Source: Methylophilus sp. 13 (GTDB lineage: Bacteria; Pseudomonadota; Gammaproteobacteria; Burkholderiales; Methylophilaceae). From it: 64,000 bases of DNA. Numbering within the stretch: the stretch's first letter is position 1; every line of letters starts with the position of its first letter. Position numbers and translations under genes: made by a program. A model generated the notes under the pieces. That model was not told where the DNA came from. It saw nothing but the letters and a program-made list of their open reading frames with translations, and did not search any database. Shown here piece by piece: positions 8,944-15,212 of this stretch. The stretch covers positions 186,001-250,000 of the forward strand of contig NZ_JADKYR010000004.1 of NCBI RefSeq assembly GCF_015354335.1. The letters are read 5' to 3'.

Positions 8944-8961
8944 TTGTCATTAAAATGTCAT
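8944..8961 (+). promoter_or_regulatory. Pho box upstream of phoB
   Basis: TTGTCATTAAAATGTCAT matches the PhoB-binding box, two CTGTCAT-type repeats separated by four A/T bases; 12 of 14 repeat bases fit. It lies about 70 bases before the phoB start, with AT-rich TTCATAAA a suitable distance downstream as a -10 region. This points to autoregulation of phoB under phosphate starvation. The divergent MFS gene begins about 70 bases on the other side and might share the site. Confidence 0.75.
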
Positions 8962-9029
8962 AATTCATTCATAAACTGGCGAGCATTCAATTAAGTAGTT
9001 TGATCTCAATATTGCTCGAAGGGAGTGTC

Positions 9030-9737
9030 ATGGCTGCAGCGAATATTTTGGTGGTAGAAGACGAACCGGCGATCCAGGAATTGCTGGCGTTGAATATCAA
9101 ACAGGCGGGGCATCATGCTATCCGTGCCACCAGCGTTGAACATGCACAAATGTTGTTACGCGAAACGATGCCAGACCTGATTTTGCTGGACTGGATGTTA
9201 CCTGGCATGAGCGGAATCGAGTTTGCGCGCAGGCTTAAATCTGACAGCATGACCAAGGAAGTGCCGATTATCATGCTCACTGCCCGCGGCGATGAGTTTG
9301 ACAAGGTGCGTGGTCTAGAAGTGGGTGCGGATGATTATGTGACCAAGCCATTCAGTCCGCGTGAATTAAATGCACGCATCAAGGCAGTGTTGCGCAGACG
9401 TGCGCCGCAGATGACAGATGATCCGATTGAAATTGCCGGCTTGCATCTGGACCCGACTACCCATCGTGTGACCGGTCATAATGTCCATATTCCATTGGGC
9501 CCTACCGAATTCAAGCTGCTGCATTTCTTCATGACCAATCCTGAGCGTGTGCATAGCCGCACGCAACTGCTGGACAAGGTGTGGGGTGACCGTGTCTTTG
9601 TTGAAGACCGTACCGTGGATGTGCATATCCGTCGTTTACGCAACGCACTGGTGGCCTCCAATCATCAGGAAATGATTCAGACTGTCCGCGGTTCAGGCTA
9701 CCGTTTCTCCGTGCATACCGATCCTGGTACGCAATAA
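9030..9737 (+). CDS. phoB: Phosphate regulon response regulator PhoB
   Basis: OmpR/PhoB-type two-component regulator (235 aa). The receiver domain (1-120) has the acidic pair around E10/D11, phospho-acceptor D54 in LLDWMLPG, T84 and K106 in TKPFSP. The winged-helix domain (about 135-230) shows [18 protein letters not shown] and [14 protein letters not shown], a PhoB rather than generic OmpR pattern. ATG at 9030 has GGGAG upstream; an in-frame TTG at 9000 is not preferred. No phoR kinase or pst genes are adjacent, unlike the common phoBR layout. A Pho box lies in front. Confidence 0.92.
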
Positions 9738-9764: not shown

Positions 9765-9787
9765 GAGCAAGACCATGGGTCTTGCTC
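9765..9787. terminator. Strong hairpin after phoB, no U-tract
   Basis: A perfect ten-base-pair stem with a 3-base loop (GAGCAAGACC ATG GGTCTTGCTC) lies 28 bases after the phoB stop. No T-run follows, so it may be an mRNA-stabilising or attenuating hairpin rather than a full terminator. Read-through into the envelope gene cluster remains possible. Confidence 0.5.
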
Positions 9788-9837: not shown

Positions 9838-11478
9838 ATGGCAAGGCCCATGAACGCTGCTGCAAATGCTTCCTCGAATGAGTCACTTTACCGCTGGTTG
9901 ATCCGGCTGTTTTGGCTTGTACTGGTCGCATGGGTGGCGTTGACCTTCCGTCAGCATGGCATCAGCAATGATGAGTATGTGCAGCATACCTATGGCCAAA
10001 TGCTGCTCGACTGGTATCAGTCGGGATTCAAGGACCAGGACGCTTTTCATTACCGTAATCTATATCTCTATGGCGGCCTGTTCGATATTATCGCGGCCGC
10101 ACTCGACCCCTACATCCCGGTCATGATCTGGGATATCCGGCATCTGCTCTCTGCCTTGTTTGGCTTGCTTGGTTTTTATGGCGTTTCTCAATTTGGCCGA
10201 TTGCTAGGCGGCCCCCGTCTGGCACTGTTGGCAATGACCATGTTGTTTTTGACGGTGTCGTGGTCAGGCACCATGTTTACCCATACCAAAGATGTTCCGT
10301 TTGCGACCTGCATGCTGTGGGCGCTGTATGCCACCGCATTGGTGGTGCGCGACATGGAGCTGGTGAGTGGCAGAGTCATTGTCCTGCTCGGCTTTGCAGT
10401 CGGCGGTGCGCTTGGCTTGCGTGTGGGCGGGGCCTTTGCCGTGATTTATCTGGTTTTGCTGGTCATGCTGCGGGCCTGGCTCGATCATAGGCAACTGCAC
10501 ACGCCGATATTTTCGCGCCTGTTGCGTATGGTGTGGGTGTTGCTGCCTGCGGCAGTGCTGGCGTTTGTGTTTATGGCCATGTGCTGGCCGTGGAGCGTGA
10601 TCGAGGCCGACAACATGCTGGAGGCGGCCAAGTCGTTCTCCCACTTTGACTTTAATATGCAAACCATCGCCAACGGGGTGGTGTATAACATCAGCGAAGT
10701 TCCACGCAGCTATTTGTTCCAGTATCTGGCAGTGAAGTTGCCCGAGGCGGCGCTACTAGCGTTTGCCGGGGTCGCCGTGCTGTGGCTGCTGAATAGACGG
10801 TCACTGCGCCTGGCTGACAACGCAATACGCATGGCTATGTATACGCTGTTGATGGGCATCCTGTTTCCGCTGGTCTTTGTCATGGATGACCGTCCAGCTT
10901 TGTACAATGGCGTCCGACACTTTACCTTTATCTTGCCCTTGCTGGCCATCTTGTCTGCCTGGTCTGTGCTCGCGGTTTGGCAGGCCTGCGTGCAGTGCAC
11001 ATCGTCCTTGCGTTATCACGCCCAGGCGCTGTGGGCGGGTGTTATCGCCGGGCTCATGCTGGTGACGCTGGTGGATATTGTGCAAATGCATCCGTATCAA
11101 TACGTCAGGTTAAATCGTCTGGTTGGCGATCAGGCACAAGCACAGTTCAAATGGGAGGGCGATTACTGGTCCAGCGCCCTGCGGGCGGCTGCGGCCCAAC
11201 TCACGGCCCTGCATTTGCCCGCGCGCACCCAGCCTTATTGGGTGGCTGCCTGTGTGGATACGCCACAAATTGAGCCCTATCTGGATGGTCGCTTTAGTGT
11301 CACCCGCCGTTGGGAGGAAGCAGATTTTTTCCTCTCCACCACCAATATGCATTGCCACGAGGTCATGCAAGGCAAACTCATCAGTGGCGTCCAGCGCGAA
11401 GGCATGTGGCTGGCAGTAGTCAAAGACCGTCGTCACTTGCAAGGGGCGGATCGCAAAGCGACGCCAGCCAAAAACTAA
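9838..11478 (+). CDS. GT-C membrane glycosyltransferase (ArnT/PMT-like)
   Basis: Large polytopic membrane protein (546 aa), roughly ten or more hydrophobic segments from residue 20 to about 420, then a soluble C-terminal part. The first periplasmic loop carries an acidic Asp-Glu pair (SNDEYVQHTYG), the hallmark of GT-C enzymes such as ArnT and PMT that use a polyprenyl-phosphate sugar on the periplasmic side. Next to a GT2 polyprenyl-phosphate glycosyltransferase, a GtrA flippase and a YdjC deacetylase, it probably performs the final transfer, perhaps to lipid A. Acceptor and sugar are inferred. The ATG at 9838 or the one at 9850 could be the start; ribosome sites are weak for both. Confidence 0.75.
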   Translation: MARPMNAAANASSNESLYRWLIRLFWLVLVAWVALTFRQHGISNDEYVQHTYGQMLLDWYQSGFKDQDAFHYRNLYLYGGLFDIIAAALDPYIPVMIWDIRHLLSALFGLLGFYGVSQFGRLLGGPRLALLAMTMLFLTVSWSGTMFTHTKDVPFATCMLWALYATALVVRDMELVSGRVIVLLGFAVGGALGLRVGGAFAVIYLVLLVMLRAWLDHRQLHTPIFSRLLRMVWVLLPAAVLAFVFMAMCWPWSVIEADNMLEAAKSFSHFDFNMQTIANGVVYNISEVPRSYLFQYLAVKLPEAALLAFAGVAVLWLLNRRSLRLADNAIRMAMYTLLMGILFPLVFVMDDRPALYNGVRHFTFILPLLAILSAWSVLAVWQACVQCTSSLRYHAQALWAGVIAGLMLVTLVDIVQMHPYQYVRLNRLVGDQAQAQFKWEGDYWSSALRAAAAQLTALHLPARTQPYWVAACVDTPQIEPYLDGRFSVTRRWEEADFFLSTTNMHCHEVMQGKLISGVQREGMWLAVVKDRRHLQGADRKATPAKN

Positions 11479-11523
11479 CCGCAATCCGCTACAATAGTCC
11501 CAGTTATTTTTGAGTATGACGCC

Positions 11524-12501
11524 ATGACCACTGCTGTTAGCCATCGCCAATCTGCCCAGCCGCATATGACGGTGATGGTGCCTGCCTACAACGAAGAAAA
11601 AAATATTGCAAAAACCTTGCAAAATATCCGGCACGATTTGCAGCAAATGTCGCCCAATTGGGACATTGTCGTGGTAGATGACGGTAGCCGTGATCAGACC
11701 TCTCTTGTGGTGCAGTCGCTGGTGGAAGAGTGTCGTGTGACCCTGGTCAAGTTCTCCCGCAACTTTGGCAAGGAAAACGCCATCAGCGCTGGCCTGACTT
11801 ATGCCAAGGGTGAGATCGTTATTTGTATGGATGCTGATGGTCAGCACGCTTCAGATCTGATGTACACCATGCTGGAAAAGTGGCGGGAGGGATATGACAT
11901 GGTCTATGCCGTGCGTCAGGACCGCGAGCAGGAATCGCCCTTCAAACTCTGGGGGTCTAGGCTGTTTTATCGCATGATGAGTAGCAGCACCCATGTGGAA
12001 ATCCCACGCGACGCCGGTGACTTCCGCCTGATGGACCGTAAAGTGGTCGATGCGCTGTGTGCACTGCCAGAACGCAACCGCTTCATGAAAGGTATCTATG
12101 CCTGGGTTGGCTACAAGTCGATCGGCATTCCGTACACCCCATTGCCGCGGTTGCATGGTGAAAGTGCTTATTCAAAACTCAAGCTGATTGCCTTGGCCTG
12201 GACTGGCATTACCAGTTTCTCGGTGTTGCCTTTGCGTCTGGCCAGCCTGACTGGTGCCACCCTGGCTATTCTGGCTTTTGCCTATGGTCTGCTGGTGGTC
12301 ATTGATGCGCTATTTTTTCATGAGTCTGTTCCTGGATGGCCCACGGTCGTTGCCAGCATGATGTTCCTGTCTGGTGTGCAGTTGTTGTTTATCGGCGTGC
12401 TTGGCGAATATCTGGCGCGTGTTTATGATGAGGTCAAAGGGCGGCCACCCTACATTGTGGCAGAAGTCGTCACGCCTGCGCCGTCAGCGGGTTCCCGCTA
12501 A
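11524..12501 (+). CDS. GT2 polyprenyl-phosphate glycosyltransferase (GtrB/ArnC-like)
   Basis: A 325-aa family-2 glycosyltransferase. It opens with VPAYNEEKNIAKTL and has VVDDGSRDQT, the metal-binding MDADGQH and the acceptor-side REQESPFKLWGSRLFYRMM, all typical of GtrB/DPM-type enzymes. These transfer a sugar from a nucleotide donor to undecaprenyl phosphate on the cytoplasmic face. Two hydrophobic helices near residues 235-300 anchor it. It follows the GT-C gene by 45 bases and precedes the GtrA-like flippase, so it likely supplies the lipid-linked sugar for the module. Confidence 0.88.
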   Translation: MTTAVSHRQSAQPHMTVMVPAYNEEKNIAKTLQNIRHDLQQMSPNWDIVVVDDGSRDQTSLVVQSLVEECRVTLVKFSRNFGKENAISAGLTYAKGEIVICMDADGQHASDLMYTMLEKWREGYDMVYAVRQDREQESPFKLWGSRLFYRMMSSSTHVEIPRDAGDFRLMDRKVVDALCALPERNRFMKGIYAWVGYKSIGIPYTPLPRLHGESAYSKLKLIALAWTGITSFSVLPLRLASLTGATLAILAFAYGLLVVIDALFFHESVPGWPTVVASMMFLSGVQLLFIGVLGEYLARVYDEVKGRPPYIVAEVVTPAPSAGSR

Positions 12502-12508
12502 GCGTCCC

Positions 12509-12895
12509 ATGCGTGCCTCGGTACTCGGGTTTGTCAGTGTTGGTGCCTTGGCGGCCGCCGTCCATTATGTCATGGCGCTACTGGCACATGCCTGGGGCCT
12601 GTCACCAGCACAGGCGAATTGGATCGGCTTTTTATGCGCATTTCCGGTCAGTTACCTCGGTCATCGGCTATGGTCTTTTCGCGGCACACAAGCCAATCAT
12701 CTGGCGGCATTCTGCAAGTTTTTTGCGGTGGCCTTATTGGGGTTCTTTGGCAATCAGGCCCTGTTATGGCTGGGGCTGAACTATACGCCGCTGCCTTTCT
12801 GGCTGGTGCTCGGCTGCGTGATGGTGATGGTCGCGGCAAGCACCTGGCTGCTCAGCCGCTTTTGGGCGTTTCAACATCATGAGGGCCAAGCATGA
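12509..12895 (+). CDS. GtrA-like small membrane flippase
   Basis: A 128-aa protein with four hydrophobic helices and the GtrA pattern: FVSVGALAAAVHYVMALLA, ANWIGFLCAFPVSYLGHRLWSF and a terminal TWLLSRFWAF. GtrA-type proteins are thought to flip undecaprenyl-phosphate sugars across the inner membrane. The start at ATG 12509 lies seven bases after the GT2 stop; a longer frame would overlap the GT2 gene and lacks family similarity. The stop overlaps the next start (ATGA). Confidence 0.85.
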   Translation: MRASVLGFVSVGALAAAVHYVMALLAHAWGLSPAQANWIGFLCAFPVSYLGHRLWSFRGTQANHLAAFCKFFAVALLGFFGNQALLWLGLNYTPLPFWLVLGCVMVMVAASTWLLSRFWAFQHHEGQA

Positions 12896-13743
12896 CGCAG
12901 CTGATTATTTGTGCAGATGATTATGCGCAGTCCGCCGAGATTGATGACGCCATCCTGGCCTTGATCGAGCGCGGCGTATTGACTGCCACCTCTTGCATGA
13001 CCCTGAGTCCGCGATGGCAAGAGACTGCCCGGCATGTCACGCCAGCCATCCGCAATTTGGCAGACATCGGCTTGCATCTTGATTTCACGCAGTACGCGCA
13101 CACCTCACGCTTTTCACATCCCGTCCTGATCATGCGCAGCCTCTGCGGCATGCTCAACCCTGCAGATGTGACGGCGAATATCACACAGCAACTGGATGCC
13201 TTTGAAGCGGCTTTGCACACGCTGCCTGATTATATCGATGGGCATTTGCATGTGCACCAGTTGCCAATGATCCGCGAATCGTTGATCGCTGTCATGCAAC
13301 AACGCTATGGCCATCTGCCCGTGGATCAACGTCCCTGGCTGCGTATTTCCAGCCCGCCAGCAGCAACCGGTCTCAAGGGGCGCATTATTCATTGGCTAGG
13401 CGCACAAGCCTTGCAGCGACAGGCAAGTGCGGCTGGTTTCCGGGTCTCCCCAGTATTATTAGGCGTCTATGATTTTCAGGGTGATGCTGCTGCCTATCAG
13501 GCACATTGGATAGAATGGGCCAGACAACTTAAGCATCTGAGGCCTGCCACGCAAAACGAATTGCCACCCGTCCTCATGTGCCATCCTGCCCGGCCAACAC
13601 AGACGGTGGATCCCTTAGACTCCATCGCCATTGCGCGCATGATCGAGTGGCAAGTCATGCAGTCCGCTGATTTTTCAGCCTGGCTTAAGATGGCGGACCT
13701 GCAGCCGGTCAAAGGCCACCCGAAAGGCCTGCCATGCGCGTAA
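12892..13743 (+). CDS. YdjC/ChbG-family carbohydrate deacetylase, NaxD-like
   Basis: A 283-aa YdjC superfamily protein. The metal-binding elements are visible: ADD at residues 8-10, GLHLD with His62, and DGHLHVHQ with His118, His120 and His122. Family members remove N-acetyl groups from amino sugars. NaxD of Francisella and its Bordetella relative deacetylate an undecaprenyl-phosphate-linked N-acetylhexosamine before transfer to lipid A. Position inside a GT-C/GT2/GtrA cluster fits that role. Overlaps gtrA (ATGA) and lnt (ten bases), so all are translationally coupled. Confidence 0.85.
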   Translation: MTQLIICADDYAQSAEIDDAILALIERGVLTATSCMTLSPRWQETARHVTPAIRNLADIGLHLDFTQYAHTSRFSHPVLIMRSLCGMLNPADVTANITQQLDAFEAALHTLPDYIDGHLHVHQLPMIRESLIAVMQQRYGHLPVDQRPWLRISSPPAATGLKGRIIHWLGAQALQRQASAAGFRVSPVLLGVYDFQGDAAAYQAHWIEWARQLKHLRPATQNELPPVLMCHPARPTQTVDPLDSIAIARMIEWQVMQSADFSAWLKMADLQPVKGHPKGLPCA

Positions 13744-15212
13744 TCACCGCCTGGCTCAGCCAGGCCTCGTGGATACAACAAGCCTTTCTCTCGTGCCTGT
13801 TAGGCGCGTTAACGGTGTTTGGTTTTGCGCCGTTTAACCTGTTTTGGCTACCTTGGCTGACGCTGGCAGCGTTGCTGGTAATTTGGCAGCAGGCGGCCAC
13901 ACCCGCGCAAGTGTTCAGGCTGGGCCTGGCGTTTGGCTTGGGCTTATACGGTGTTGGTATCTACTGGATTTATATCAGCCTGCATACCTTTGGCGGCATG
14001 CCCTGGTGGTTTGCCGGTTTTTGTACCTTTTGCCTGTGCGCCTTCATGGCGCTTTTCCCGGCCCTCGCGGGTTATCTGGCAAAAAAAGTCGGTCATCTGC
14101 TATGGTCTGCGCCACTGCTATGGGCCTTGTCCGACTGGGTGCGTAGCTGGATTTTTACCGGGTTCCCCTGGTTGACACTGGGCTACAGTCAGGCCCCAGA
14201 CAGTCCACTCACCGGCTTTCTGCCTGTTGTTGGCGTCTATGGTGTCTCTGCCTTGCTCATGCTAGGGGCCGCCAGTCTTGCTTGCCTGCTGATCATGCCG
14301 CAGCGTAAACCGGCCTTCATCATGCTCGCGCTATTGTGGCTAGGCGGCAGCCTGCTGACACTGGTGCCGTGGACGCAGCCTACGGGAAAACCTCTCTCGG
14401 TCGCCTTGCTGCAAGGCAATATTAGCCAAACCATCAAATGGTCGCCTGAGCACGCGGAACAGACCCTGCGTCAGTATTTCGACATGGTGCAGCAAACCCA
14501 GGCCCAATTGATTGTGCTGCCCGAAACCGCTTTGCCGGTGTTGCTTGACCAACTTGCGCCCAGCTATCTCGATGCTCTCAAACAGCACGCAGTACAGCAA
14601 AAAGGCGACCTCTTGGTGGGCGTTGTTGAGTCCAAACAAGACCAGTACTTTAATAGCGCCATCAGCCTGGGCAGCTCTCCCACACAGTCTTACTCCAAAA
14701 GCCACCTGGTGCCTTTTGGCGAATTTATTCCGCTTAAAAGCCTGTTCGGCTGGATATACCGAGACTGGCTGCATATGCCGCTCAGCGATTTATCCCGCGG
14801 CACATCGAAACAGCCATTGCTGATTGCCGGGCAAAAAGTCGGTGTCAATATTTGCTATGAAGACGTGTTTGGGGAAGAAATTGCCCAGCAACTGCCGCAA
14901 GCCGAGCTCTTGGTCAATATCAGCAACGATGCCTGGTACGGACAATCGTTTGCGGCCGACCAGCATATGCAATTCAGCCAGGTGCGCGCCATTGAAACCG
15001 GGCGGATGGTGTTGCGTAGCACCAATACGGGCGCGACCGCCATCATCGATAAAAATGGCCAGGTATTGCAGCATGCACCGCATGATGAGGCGGTGATTTT
15101 GACGGGCGAAGCGCACAGCTACCAAGGACAGACGCCTTATGTTTGGTGGGGGAATTGGGCGTTTTTGGTCTTGAGTGTGGCAGGATTGATCTGGATTAGG
15201 GTAAGAAGGTAA
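13734..15212 (+). CDS. lnt: Apolipoprotein N-acyltransferase
   Basis: Inner-membrane enzyme that adds the third acyl chain to the N-terminal cysteine of lipoproteins (492 aa). Several N-terminal membrane helices are followed by a nitrilase domain with a complete catalytic triad: Glu264 in VLPETALP, Lys322 in KSHLVPFGE and Cys374 in NICYEDVF. A final hydrophobic helix closes the protein. Its start overlaps the deacetylase gene by ten bases, tying it to the upstream envelope cluster. Confidence 0.95.
   Translation: MRVITAWLSQASWIQQAFLSCLLGALTVFGFAPFNLFWLPWLTLAALLVIWQQAATPAQVFRLGLAFGLGLYGVGIYWIYISLHTFGGMPWWFAGFCTFCLCAFMALFPALAGYLAKKVGHLLWSAPLLWALSDWVRSWIFTGFPWLTLGYSQAPDSPLTGFLPVVGVYGVSALLMLGAASLACLLIMPQRKPAFIMLALLWLGGSLLTLVPWTQPTGKPLSVALLQGNISQTIKWSPEHAEQTLRQYFDMVQQTQAQLIVLPETALPVLLDQLAPSYLDALKQHAVQQKGDLLVGVVESKQDQYFNSAISLGSSPTQSYSKSHLVPFGEFIPLKSLFGWIYRDWLHMPLSDLSRGTSKQPLLIAGQKVGVNICYEDVFGEEIAQQLPQAELLVNISNDAWYGQSFAADQHMQFSQVRAIETGRMVLRSTNTGATAIIDKNGQVLQHAPHDEAVILTGEAHSYQGQTPYVWWGNWAFLVLSVAGLIWIRVRR

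Follow-up and report, generated by a model that had tools for sequence, protein, structure and literature searches.

A 64,000-nucleotide (nt) stretch of contig NZ_JADKYR010000004.1 from Methylophilus sp. 13, referred to here as the window, contains a module of four open reading frames (ORFs) on the + strand at 9838-13743 that probably encodes a system for adding an amino sugar to a glycolipid of the cell envelope. The genes encode, in order, a membrane glycosyltransferase with a predicted GT-C fold (hereafter GT-C), a family 2 glycosyltransferase (GT2), a GtrA-type protein and a YdjC-family protein, and lnt comes next (Table 1). The genes are closely packed. GT-C and GT2 are separated by 45 nt and GT2 and GtrA by 7 nt (with the GtrA ATG at 12509), while GtrA and YdjC overlap by 4 nt and YdjC and lnt by 10 nt. 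The end of phoB lies 100 nt before the start of GT-C, and lnt directly follows YdjC. An earlier note on this DNA had described four overlapping or closely spaced genes with phoB immediately upstream and lnt at the end. The ORFs, families and spacing were confirmed, and the two neighbours were confirmed by matches to TIGR02154 and TIGR00546.

Table 1. Positions of the module genes and of neighbouring features in the window
Feature	Position	Strand	Remarks
GT-C-fold membrane glycosyltransferase	9838..11478	+	546 aa; by sequence distinct from ArnT
GtrB/ArnC-like GT2, predicted undecaprenyl-phosphate N-acetylhexosamine (HexNAc) synthase	11524..12501	+	325 aa
GtrA-type predicted lipid-sugar flippase	12509..12895	+	128 aa; frame open from 12374
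YdjC-family predicted deacetylase, NaxD-like	12892..13743	+	283 aa
lnt, apolipoprotein N-acyltransferase, neighbour	13734..15212	+	TIGR00546 351.2 bits (cut-off 132.9)
phoB, phosphate response regulator, neighbour	about 9030..9737	+	TIGR02154 355.9 bits (cut-off 296.2)
Two overlapping Pho-box-like matches, upstream of phoB	8944..8972	+	2 and 3 mismatches
10-pair palindrome between phoB and GT-C	9765..9787	.	terminator-like on - strand only

The four-gene set is a conserved unit. YdjC was found in 57 and GT-C in 56 of 150 genomes of the family, all 56 being among the 57, and the only genome with YdjC alone (G145) is a draft that is 80% complete. In other genomes of the family, 20 of 20 regions, each 12-16 kb long, keep the order GT-C, GT2, YdjC, and GtrA lies between GT2 and YdjC in 19 of them (it was not found in L058). 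Within the genus of the window GT-C is present in 20 of 22 genomes, and among the matches listed its nearest named relatives are Methylophilus loci that are 77-84% identical. GT-C is rare across the class, with a match in 4 of 369 genomes drawn from it, own genome included. A scan of named genomes gave at least 576 matching stretches, and the best 79 loci of the 576 were kept; these are the 79 named loci referred to below. All four genes occur in 65 of the 79, in three arrangements: GT-C, GT2, GtrA, YdjC (30 loci), a divergent YdjC with GT2, GT-C, GtrA (29 loci) and GT2, GtrA, YdjC, GT-C (6 loci). Since the three gene orders have the same content, the set is better explained as a functional unit than as an inherited position. 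Ten of the 14 incomplete loci end at most 2.2 kb from GT-C on one side, and one of these ten (L153) has no partner genes in 7.8 kb on the other side. A family resembling ATP-binding cassette (ABC) transporters, recognised by eye, occurs in 12 of the 79 loci, and it was dismissed as a further conserved partner because its positions are scattered.

The first half of the proposed pathway would make the sugar donor. GT2 matches PF00535 with 120.1 bits (cut-off 23.3), GtrB sll0501 (5ekp) among the structures with an E of 7.4e-82 and ArnC structures with E from 1.1e-46 to 4.8e-43. By family and similarity it is a GtrB/ArnC-like enzyme predicted to make undecaprenyl phosphate (Und-P)-HexNAc. GtrA matches PF04138 with 73.9 bits (cut-off 26.1). 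One GtrA, one YdjC and one full-length GT2 match were found in the genome, all inside the module; a second GT2 match is 31% identical over 109 residues. The NaxD operon of A. baumannii, which serves the addition of galactosamine to lipid A, contains the same four gene kinds as the module, and its GT2, GtrA and YdjC proteins are 46%, 37% and 35% identical to those of the window. The operon lies beside gyrA in a record filed as a 561 kb plasmid, with the gene order YdjC, GT2, GtrA, GT39, which differs from that of the module; its YdjC was identified as NaxD by species and operon content rather than by locus tag. Two other loci hold genes of these kinds. At L072:4973-6864 (Azospirillum ramasamyi) YdjC adjoins, in place of GtrA, a transporter of the DMT family, perhaps a flippase of another type in a related pathway. 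At L074:4971-8076 (Cupriavidus metallidurans pMOL30) GT39, GtrA and GT2 are consecutive with no annotated deacetylase, and a gene for a heavy-metal P-type ATPase is nearby.

YdjC matches PF04794 with 152.1 bits (cut-off 29.7). It is 34.8% identical over 267 residues to the NaxD-like protein of A. baumannii and 20.9% identical over 134 residues to E. coli ChbG. Its NCBIfam scores fall far below the cut-offs both for the ChbG equivalog (48.2 bits, cut-off 227) and for HpnK (45.5 bits, cut-off 232.6). A tree of 84 YdjC rows, which leaves out LgmC and Francisella NaxD and contains long branches, groups the window YdjC with rows from A. baumannii, Comamonas and Variovorax (99/96) and splits this group from ChbG, two HpnK and six other rows (100/99). 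On the tree and the identities YdjC is nearer to NaxD than to ChbG or HpnK, although an approximately unbiased (AU) test that forced ChbG into the window group was not rejected (p 0.286). Because of this result and the long branches, the tree alone is compatible with ChbG kinship; the scores and the linkage carry the remaining weight. An identity as ChbG or HpnK was rejected on the NCBIfam scores, the similarities, the linkage and the tree, with the reservation that the AU result places on the last. All 41 aligned sequences have the residues D9, D10, H62, D116, H118 and H120. In a comparison with E. coli ChbG, D10 and H62 line up with D11 and H61, and residues 116-122 with the histidine-rich stretch. 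The AlphaFold model (predicted local distance difference test, pLDDT, 94.5) has ChbG 7vi8 as its best structural match and ArnD 8t0j lower. The model starts with a strand, and because an N-terminal membrane helix is absent from it the enzyme is probably cytoplasmic.

The likeness to NaxD claimed in the earlier note holds in the grouping with the NaxD-like row apart from ChbG and HpnK, within the limit set by the AU test. The NaxD-type donor pathway proposed there is upheld by the similarity of GT2 and YdjC to the A. baumannii proteins, and an Und-P-hexosamine system is well supported by these comparisons.

GT-C itself is less easily placed. Its score for PMT_2 (16.9 bits; 22.9 in a genome search) is below the cut-off of 26.1. 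It matched no NCBIfam family at E up to 0.1, and hence not the ArnT model NF009784, although a GT39 from Variovorax that matches PMT_2 strongly also gives no hit with this model. Neither the single sequence nor a profile built from 14 relatives found ArnT in a sequence search of the Protein Data Bank (PDB). Pairwise comparison with the A. baumannii GT39 gave no significant match, and the GT-C profile likewise found nothing there. That GT39 is ArnT-like, unlike GT-C of the window: it scores 186.3 bits with NF009784 (below 567), matches the ArnT structure 5ezm with an E of 7.5e-48 and has an HKPPL motif. Remote hints of kinship do exist. In hhalign GT-C was aligned with three GT39 proteins of module-like operons with an E of 0.0018 and a probability of 14.8, a weak test in that the three rows are no more than 16 and 24% alike, and of the three the A. 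baumannii protein alone matches the ArnT model. A GT39 from Cupriavidus reaches 9.2 bits (E 2.3e-4) with the GT-C profile, and a GT-C relative from Azospirillum passes PMT_2 with 33.0 bits (cut-off 26.1). From these hints and the absent ArnT matches, GT-C is, as far as sequence can tell, a far branch of the GT39/PMT_2 stock and not an ArnT.

The AlphaFold model of GT-C (mean pLDDT 91.5, predicted template modelling score 0.92) clearly predicts a GT-C fold. Foldseek gives ArnT 5f15 as the best match (E 6.1e-8) and oligosaccharyltransferase (OST) as the next (E 3.1e-6). With ArnT, the transferase for 4-amino-4-deoxy-L-arabinose (L-Ara4N), GT-C shares the general GT-C fold and a DE pair that follows membrane helix 1. 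The two differ in the ArnT-model match, which GT-C does not have, and in their motifs. S43-N44-D45-E46 and Y78-G79-G80-x-F82-D83 are invariant in 55 aligned sequences; [ST][ND]DE and YGGxFD occur in 79 of 79 GT-C rows, and KPPL/HPPL in none of the 79. YGGxFD is found in none of five comparison proteins, of which four have KPPL/HPPL (A. baumannii, Variovorax, Cupriavidus and the ArnT relative of the own genome, but not Pantoea ArnT). Of the three more distant relatives found in the class search, two deviate from the GT-C motifs (L063 with SWDE; L064 with TWDE and YGAAFD). TKDxPF, present in 64 of the 79, was not counted as motif evidence because it is part of the search pattern of the scan.

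In Francisella, a GT2 and a deacetylase make Und-P-galactosamine, from which the sugar is moved to lipid A; FlmK and, in Bordetella, LgmB are ArnT-like transferases. The module was likened to flmF2, naxD and flmK of Francisella by this described logic, not by sequence, and to Bordetella lgmABCD, which adds glucosamine to lipid A, by the description of the gene cluster, not by sequence. Individual lgm genes presumably match individual parts of the module, with lgmD taken to be the counterpart of GtrA. In Francisella, flmF2 and flmK have been tied to lipid A galactosamine (PMC4688374). NaxD is reported to deacetylate N-acetylgalactosamine in a step required for lipid A galactosamine (PMC10215926), and lgmA, lgmB and lgmC are needed for glucosamine on the lipid A phosphates of Bordetella, whereas lgmD of the same cluster is not (PMC4993483). 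An ArnT-family transferase, as found in NaxD/Lgm-type systems, was not recognised in the module beyond the weak profile hints of remote kinship, and for this reason the module is not filed as a member of that type. The earlier note had taken GT-C to be of the FlmK/LgmB/ArnT kind. This could not be sustained in view of the missing ArnT-model, PDB ArnT and GT39 pairwise matches and of the motifs particular to GT-C, and consequently lipid A phosphate is not established as the acceptor. Except for the final transfer, the module most likely acts as the NaxD and Lgm systems do.

Gtr-type three-component glycosylation offers a further comparison. As far as the available text of PMC11127046 describes it, this scheme consists of a GtrB-like GT2, a GtrA flippase and a system-specific GT-C; the deacetylase is not treated in that text. 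The module has a GtrB-like GT2, GtrA and a GT-C-fold transferase linked in the same way, and the deacetylase is an addition, which makes its sugar presumably cationic. A limited literature search found no paper on this four-gene set, and nothing relevant on Methylophilus lipid A was found among titles and the openings of abstracts. The module can be described as a Gtr-like three-component system that has gained a NaxD-like deacetylase and uses an uncharacterised GT-C.

We propose that the module is a four-component periplasmic glycosylation system that adds a hexosamine to an envelope glycolipid, a reading with a probability of about 0.7 in which we infer the sugar, the activity, the order of steps and the acceptor. 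GT2 would load Und-P with an N-acetylhexosamine from its uridine diphosphate (UDP) form, N-acetylglucosamine (GlcNAc) being the simplest guess. YdjC would strip the acetyl group to give Und-P-hexosamine, which GtrA would move across the membrane. GT-C, with a periplasmic active site, would then pass on the cationic sugar; the recipient would be a glycolipid of the envelope, most likely a part of the lipopolysaccharide (LPS) such as lipid A or the inner core. LPS is a first guess at the acceptor, and lipid A is one option among several. The proposal builds on the observed presence and families of the genes, their conserved linkage, the conserved catalytic-type residues and the predicted folds.

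Several observations weigh against this proposal. The sugar and the acceptor are assigned from the genes alone, and GT-C stands outside the ArnT sequence family. The VIA-align Z scores of the GT-C model are almost equal for ArnT (24.4), ALG12 (23.5), OST (23.3) and protein O-mannosyltransferase (PMT, 22.5), and because these lie within 2 Z the fold is silent on the acceptor. ArnT comes first but leads ALG12 by less than 1 Z, which indicates a GT-C fold of the general kind. Parts of the module can also be missing. Two Methylovorus loci (L088 and L090, 9638-11458) lack only GtrA and have GT2 directly next to YdjC, and in L121 and L136 GT-C is without all three partners in flanks of at least 7.6 kb on each side. 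Two Azospirillum plasmids likewise carry a GT-C relative, and in an incomplete gene table (PLSDB) none of the genes annotated up to 8 kb away from it is a partner. A dispensable lgmD would agree with the Methylovorus loci that lack GtrA, if lgmD is indeed the counterpart of GtrA.

The surroundings of the module vary. The arrangement with phoB upstream and lnt downstream occurs in 6 of the 20 family regions and in 7 of the 79 named loci, those seven all being named Methylophilus. It marks part of one genus, since L093, which is also named Methylophilus, is without these flanks. Of nine further genomes of the family, six have phoB and lnt on one contig with about 69 to 286 kb between them and three have the two genes on different contigs, and on these grounds the idea that phosphate control belongs to the module was rejected. 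The window has 10 Pho-box-like matches where 5.1 are expected by chance, and 4 of 100 shuffles reached 10. No Pho-box-like site with up to 3 mismatches, as membership in the Pho regulon would suggest, was found between phoB and GT-C. The link to phosphate stress suggested in the earlier note thus comes down to the adjacency of phoB. Read-through of transcription from phoB into the module is possible in these genomes because it is only on the - strand that the palindrome between them is terminator-like; the region has 7 terminator-like sites, against 7.8 expected from shuffles. A second lnt relative lies elsewhere in the genome (G000:C1:120757-122178, 43% identical), whereas each of the nine other family genomes searched gave a single match (E up to 1e-40).

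A different neighbourhood is seen in 25 of the 79 named loci, where a GH17-like gene and a gene for a GH17-GT2 synthase follow the module. The sameness of these two genes across the 25 loci was judged by clustering, size and position. In L051 the first of the counterparts scores 23.9 bits with GH17 of Pfam (cut-off 28.2), and the second contains GT2 plus GH17 (33.8 bits). In L051 and L054, the two examples that were scanned, the module follows queG. From the genus of the window 7 genomes were checked in which phoB and lnt flank the module, and all 7 retain the GH17-GT2 gene elsewhere. Both neighbourhoods, phoB/lnt and GH17, look positional.

The genome of the window encodes a second GT-C-type protein outside the module, an ArnT relative of 536 aa at G000:C13:35194-36801 (L166:6192-7802). 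It scores 199.9 bits with NF009784, below the cut-off of 567, and matches the ArnT structure 5ezm with an E of 2.4e-36. Its gene is convergent to a gene read as hemE, and no donor genes were seen beside it. It is patchy in the genus, with E below 1e-100 in 7 of 22 genomes. The ArnT relative is a possible second user of the donor made by the module. If lipid A carries hexosamine in this organism, the ArnT relative is as good a candidate for the transfer as GT-C of the module.

Other explanations differ mainly in the acceptor. The module may put hexosamine on lipid A phosphates as in Francisella, Acinetobacter and Bordetella, with GT-C as a diverged equal of FlmK, LgmB and ArnT. The donor genes like those of the A. 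baumannii operon and the grouping of YdjC with NaxD would fit this, as would ArnT as the top Foldseek match and the weak profile hints from hhalign and the Cupriavidus GT39, but GT-C has no ArnT-model match, the hhalign probability is low (in a weak test with three rows on one side), KPPL/HPPL is absent throughout the GT-C rows and the genome has its separate ArnT relative. This explanation is plausible and falls somewhat short of an even chance. It is unlikely that Und-P-hexosamine from the module feeds two transferases, with GT-C serving one acceptor and the unlinked ArnT relative serving lipid A. The ArnT relative resembles ArnT in model and structure searches and stands without donor genes, and the GT2 of the module is the only full-length match of this type found in the genome; however, the ArnT relative occurs in far fewer genomes of the genus than GT-C does, and its donor may be another lipid.

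An acceptor among other periplasmic or surface glycans, for example a beta-glucan, is more improbable still. The GH17 neighbourhood points that way, but 24 of its 25 loci are Methylophilaceae or Methylophilales by title (one is given only as Betaproteobacteria), so the link may be an inherited position, and in the genus of the window the GH17-GT2 gene lies elsewhere. There is very little chance that YdjC is an ordinary ChbG or HpnK enzyme, acting on chitobiose or a hopanoid, that is merely located here. It shares the fold of ChbG, and the AU test does not reject ChbG inside its group, but the NCBIfam scores, the identities, the split in the tree and the linkage of YdjC to GT2 and GT-C all speak against such a role.

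The four-component glycosylation system preferred here may have a mixed history. The window YdjC lies closer to the rows of A. baumannii and Variovorax, whose linked transferase is a GT39 of ArnT or PMT_2 type, than to the GT-C-linked rows of Rhodocyclales and Xanthobacteraceae. A single clade of all GT-C-linked YdjC rows was rejected (AU test, p 0.0017), and the GT2 tree has a similar pattern with a one-clade test that was not significant (p 0.062); the groups in these tests were named after the first tree had been seen, and long branches are in play. This pattern suggests that transferases have been exchanged between donor halves. It is a tentative idea, with the odds leaning against it, that GT-C represents a family of amino-sugar transferases of its own, which would use the NaxD-pathway donor on another acceptor (LPS core, a glycolipid, or a periplasmic glycan or protein), would be widespread in environmental Alpha- and Betaproteobacteria and would have swapped donor halves or transferases with ArnT/PMT_2-type systems.

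Amino sugars on lipid A alter resistance to cationic peptides, and Bordetella lgmB mutants are more sensitive (PMC8168481). A common unit with a non-ArnT transferase in methylotrophs, Rhodocyclales and Xanthobacteraceae would extend amino-sugar capping beyond the examples from pathogens, and such capping may have an acceptor that is not yet known.

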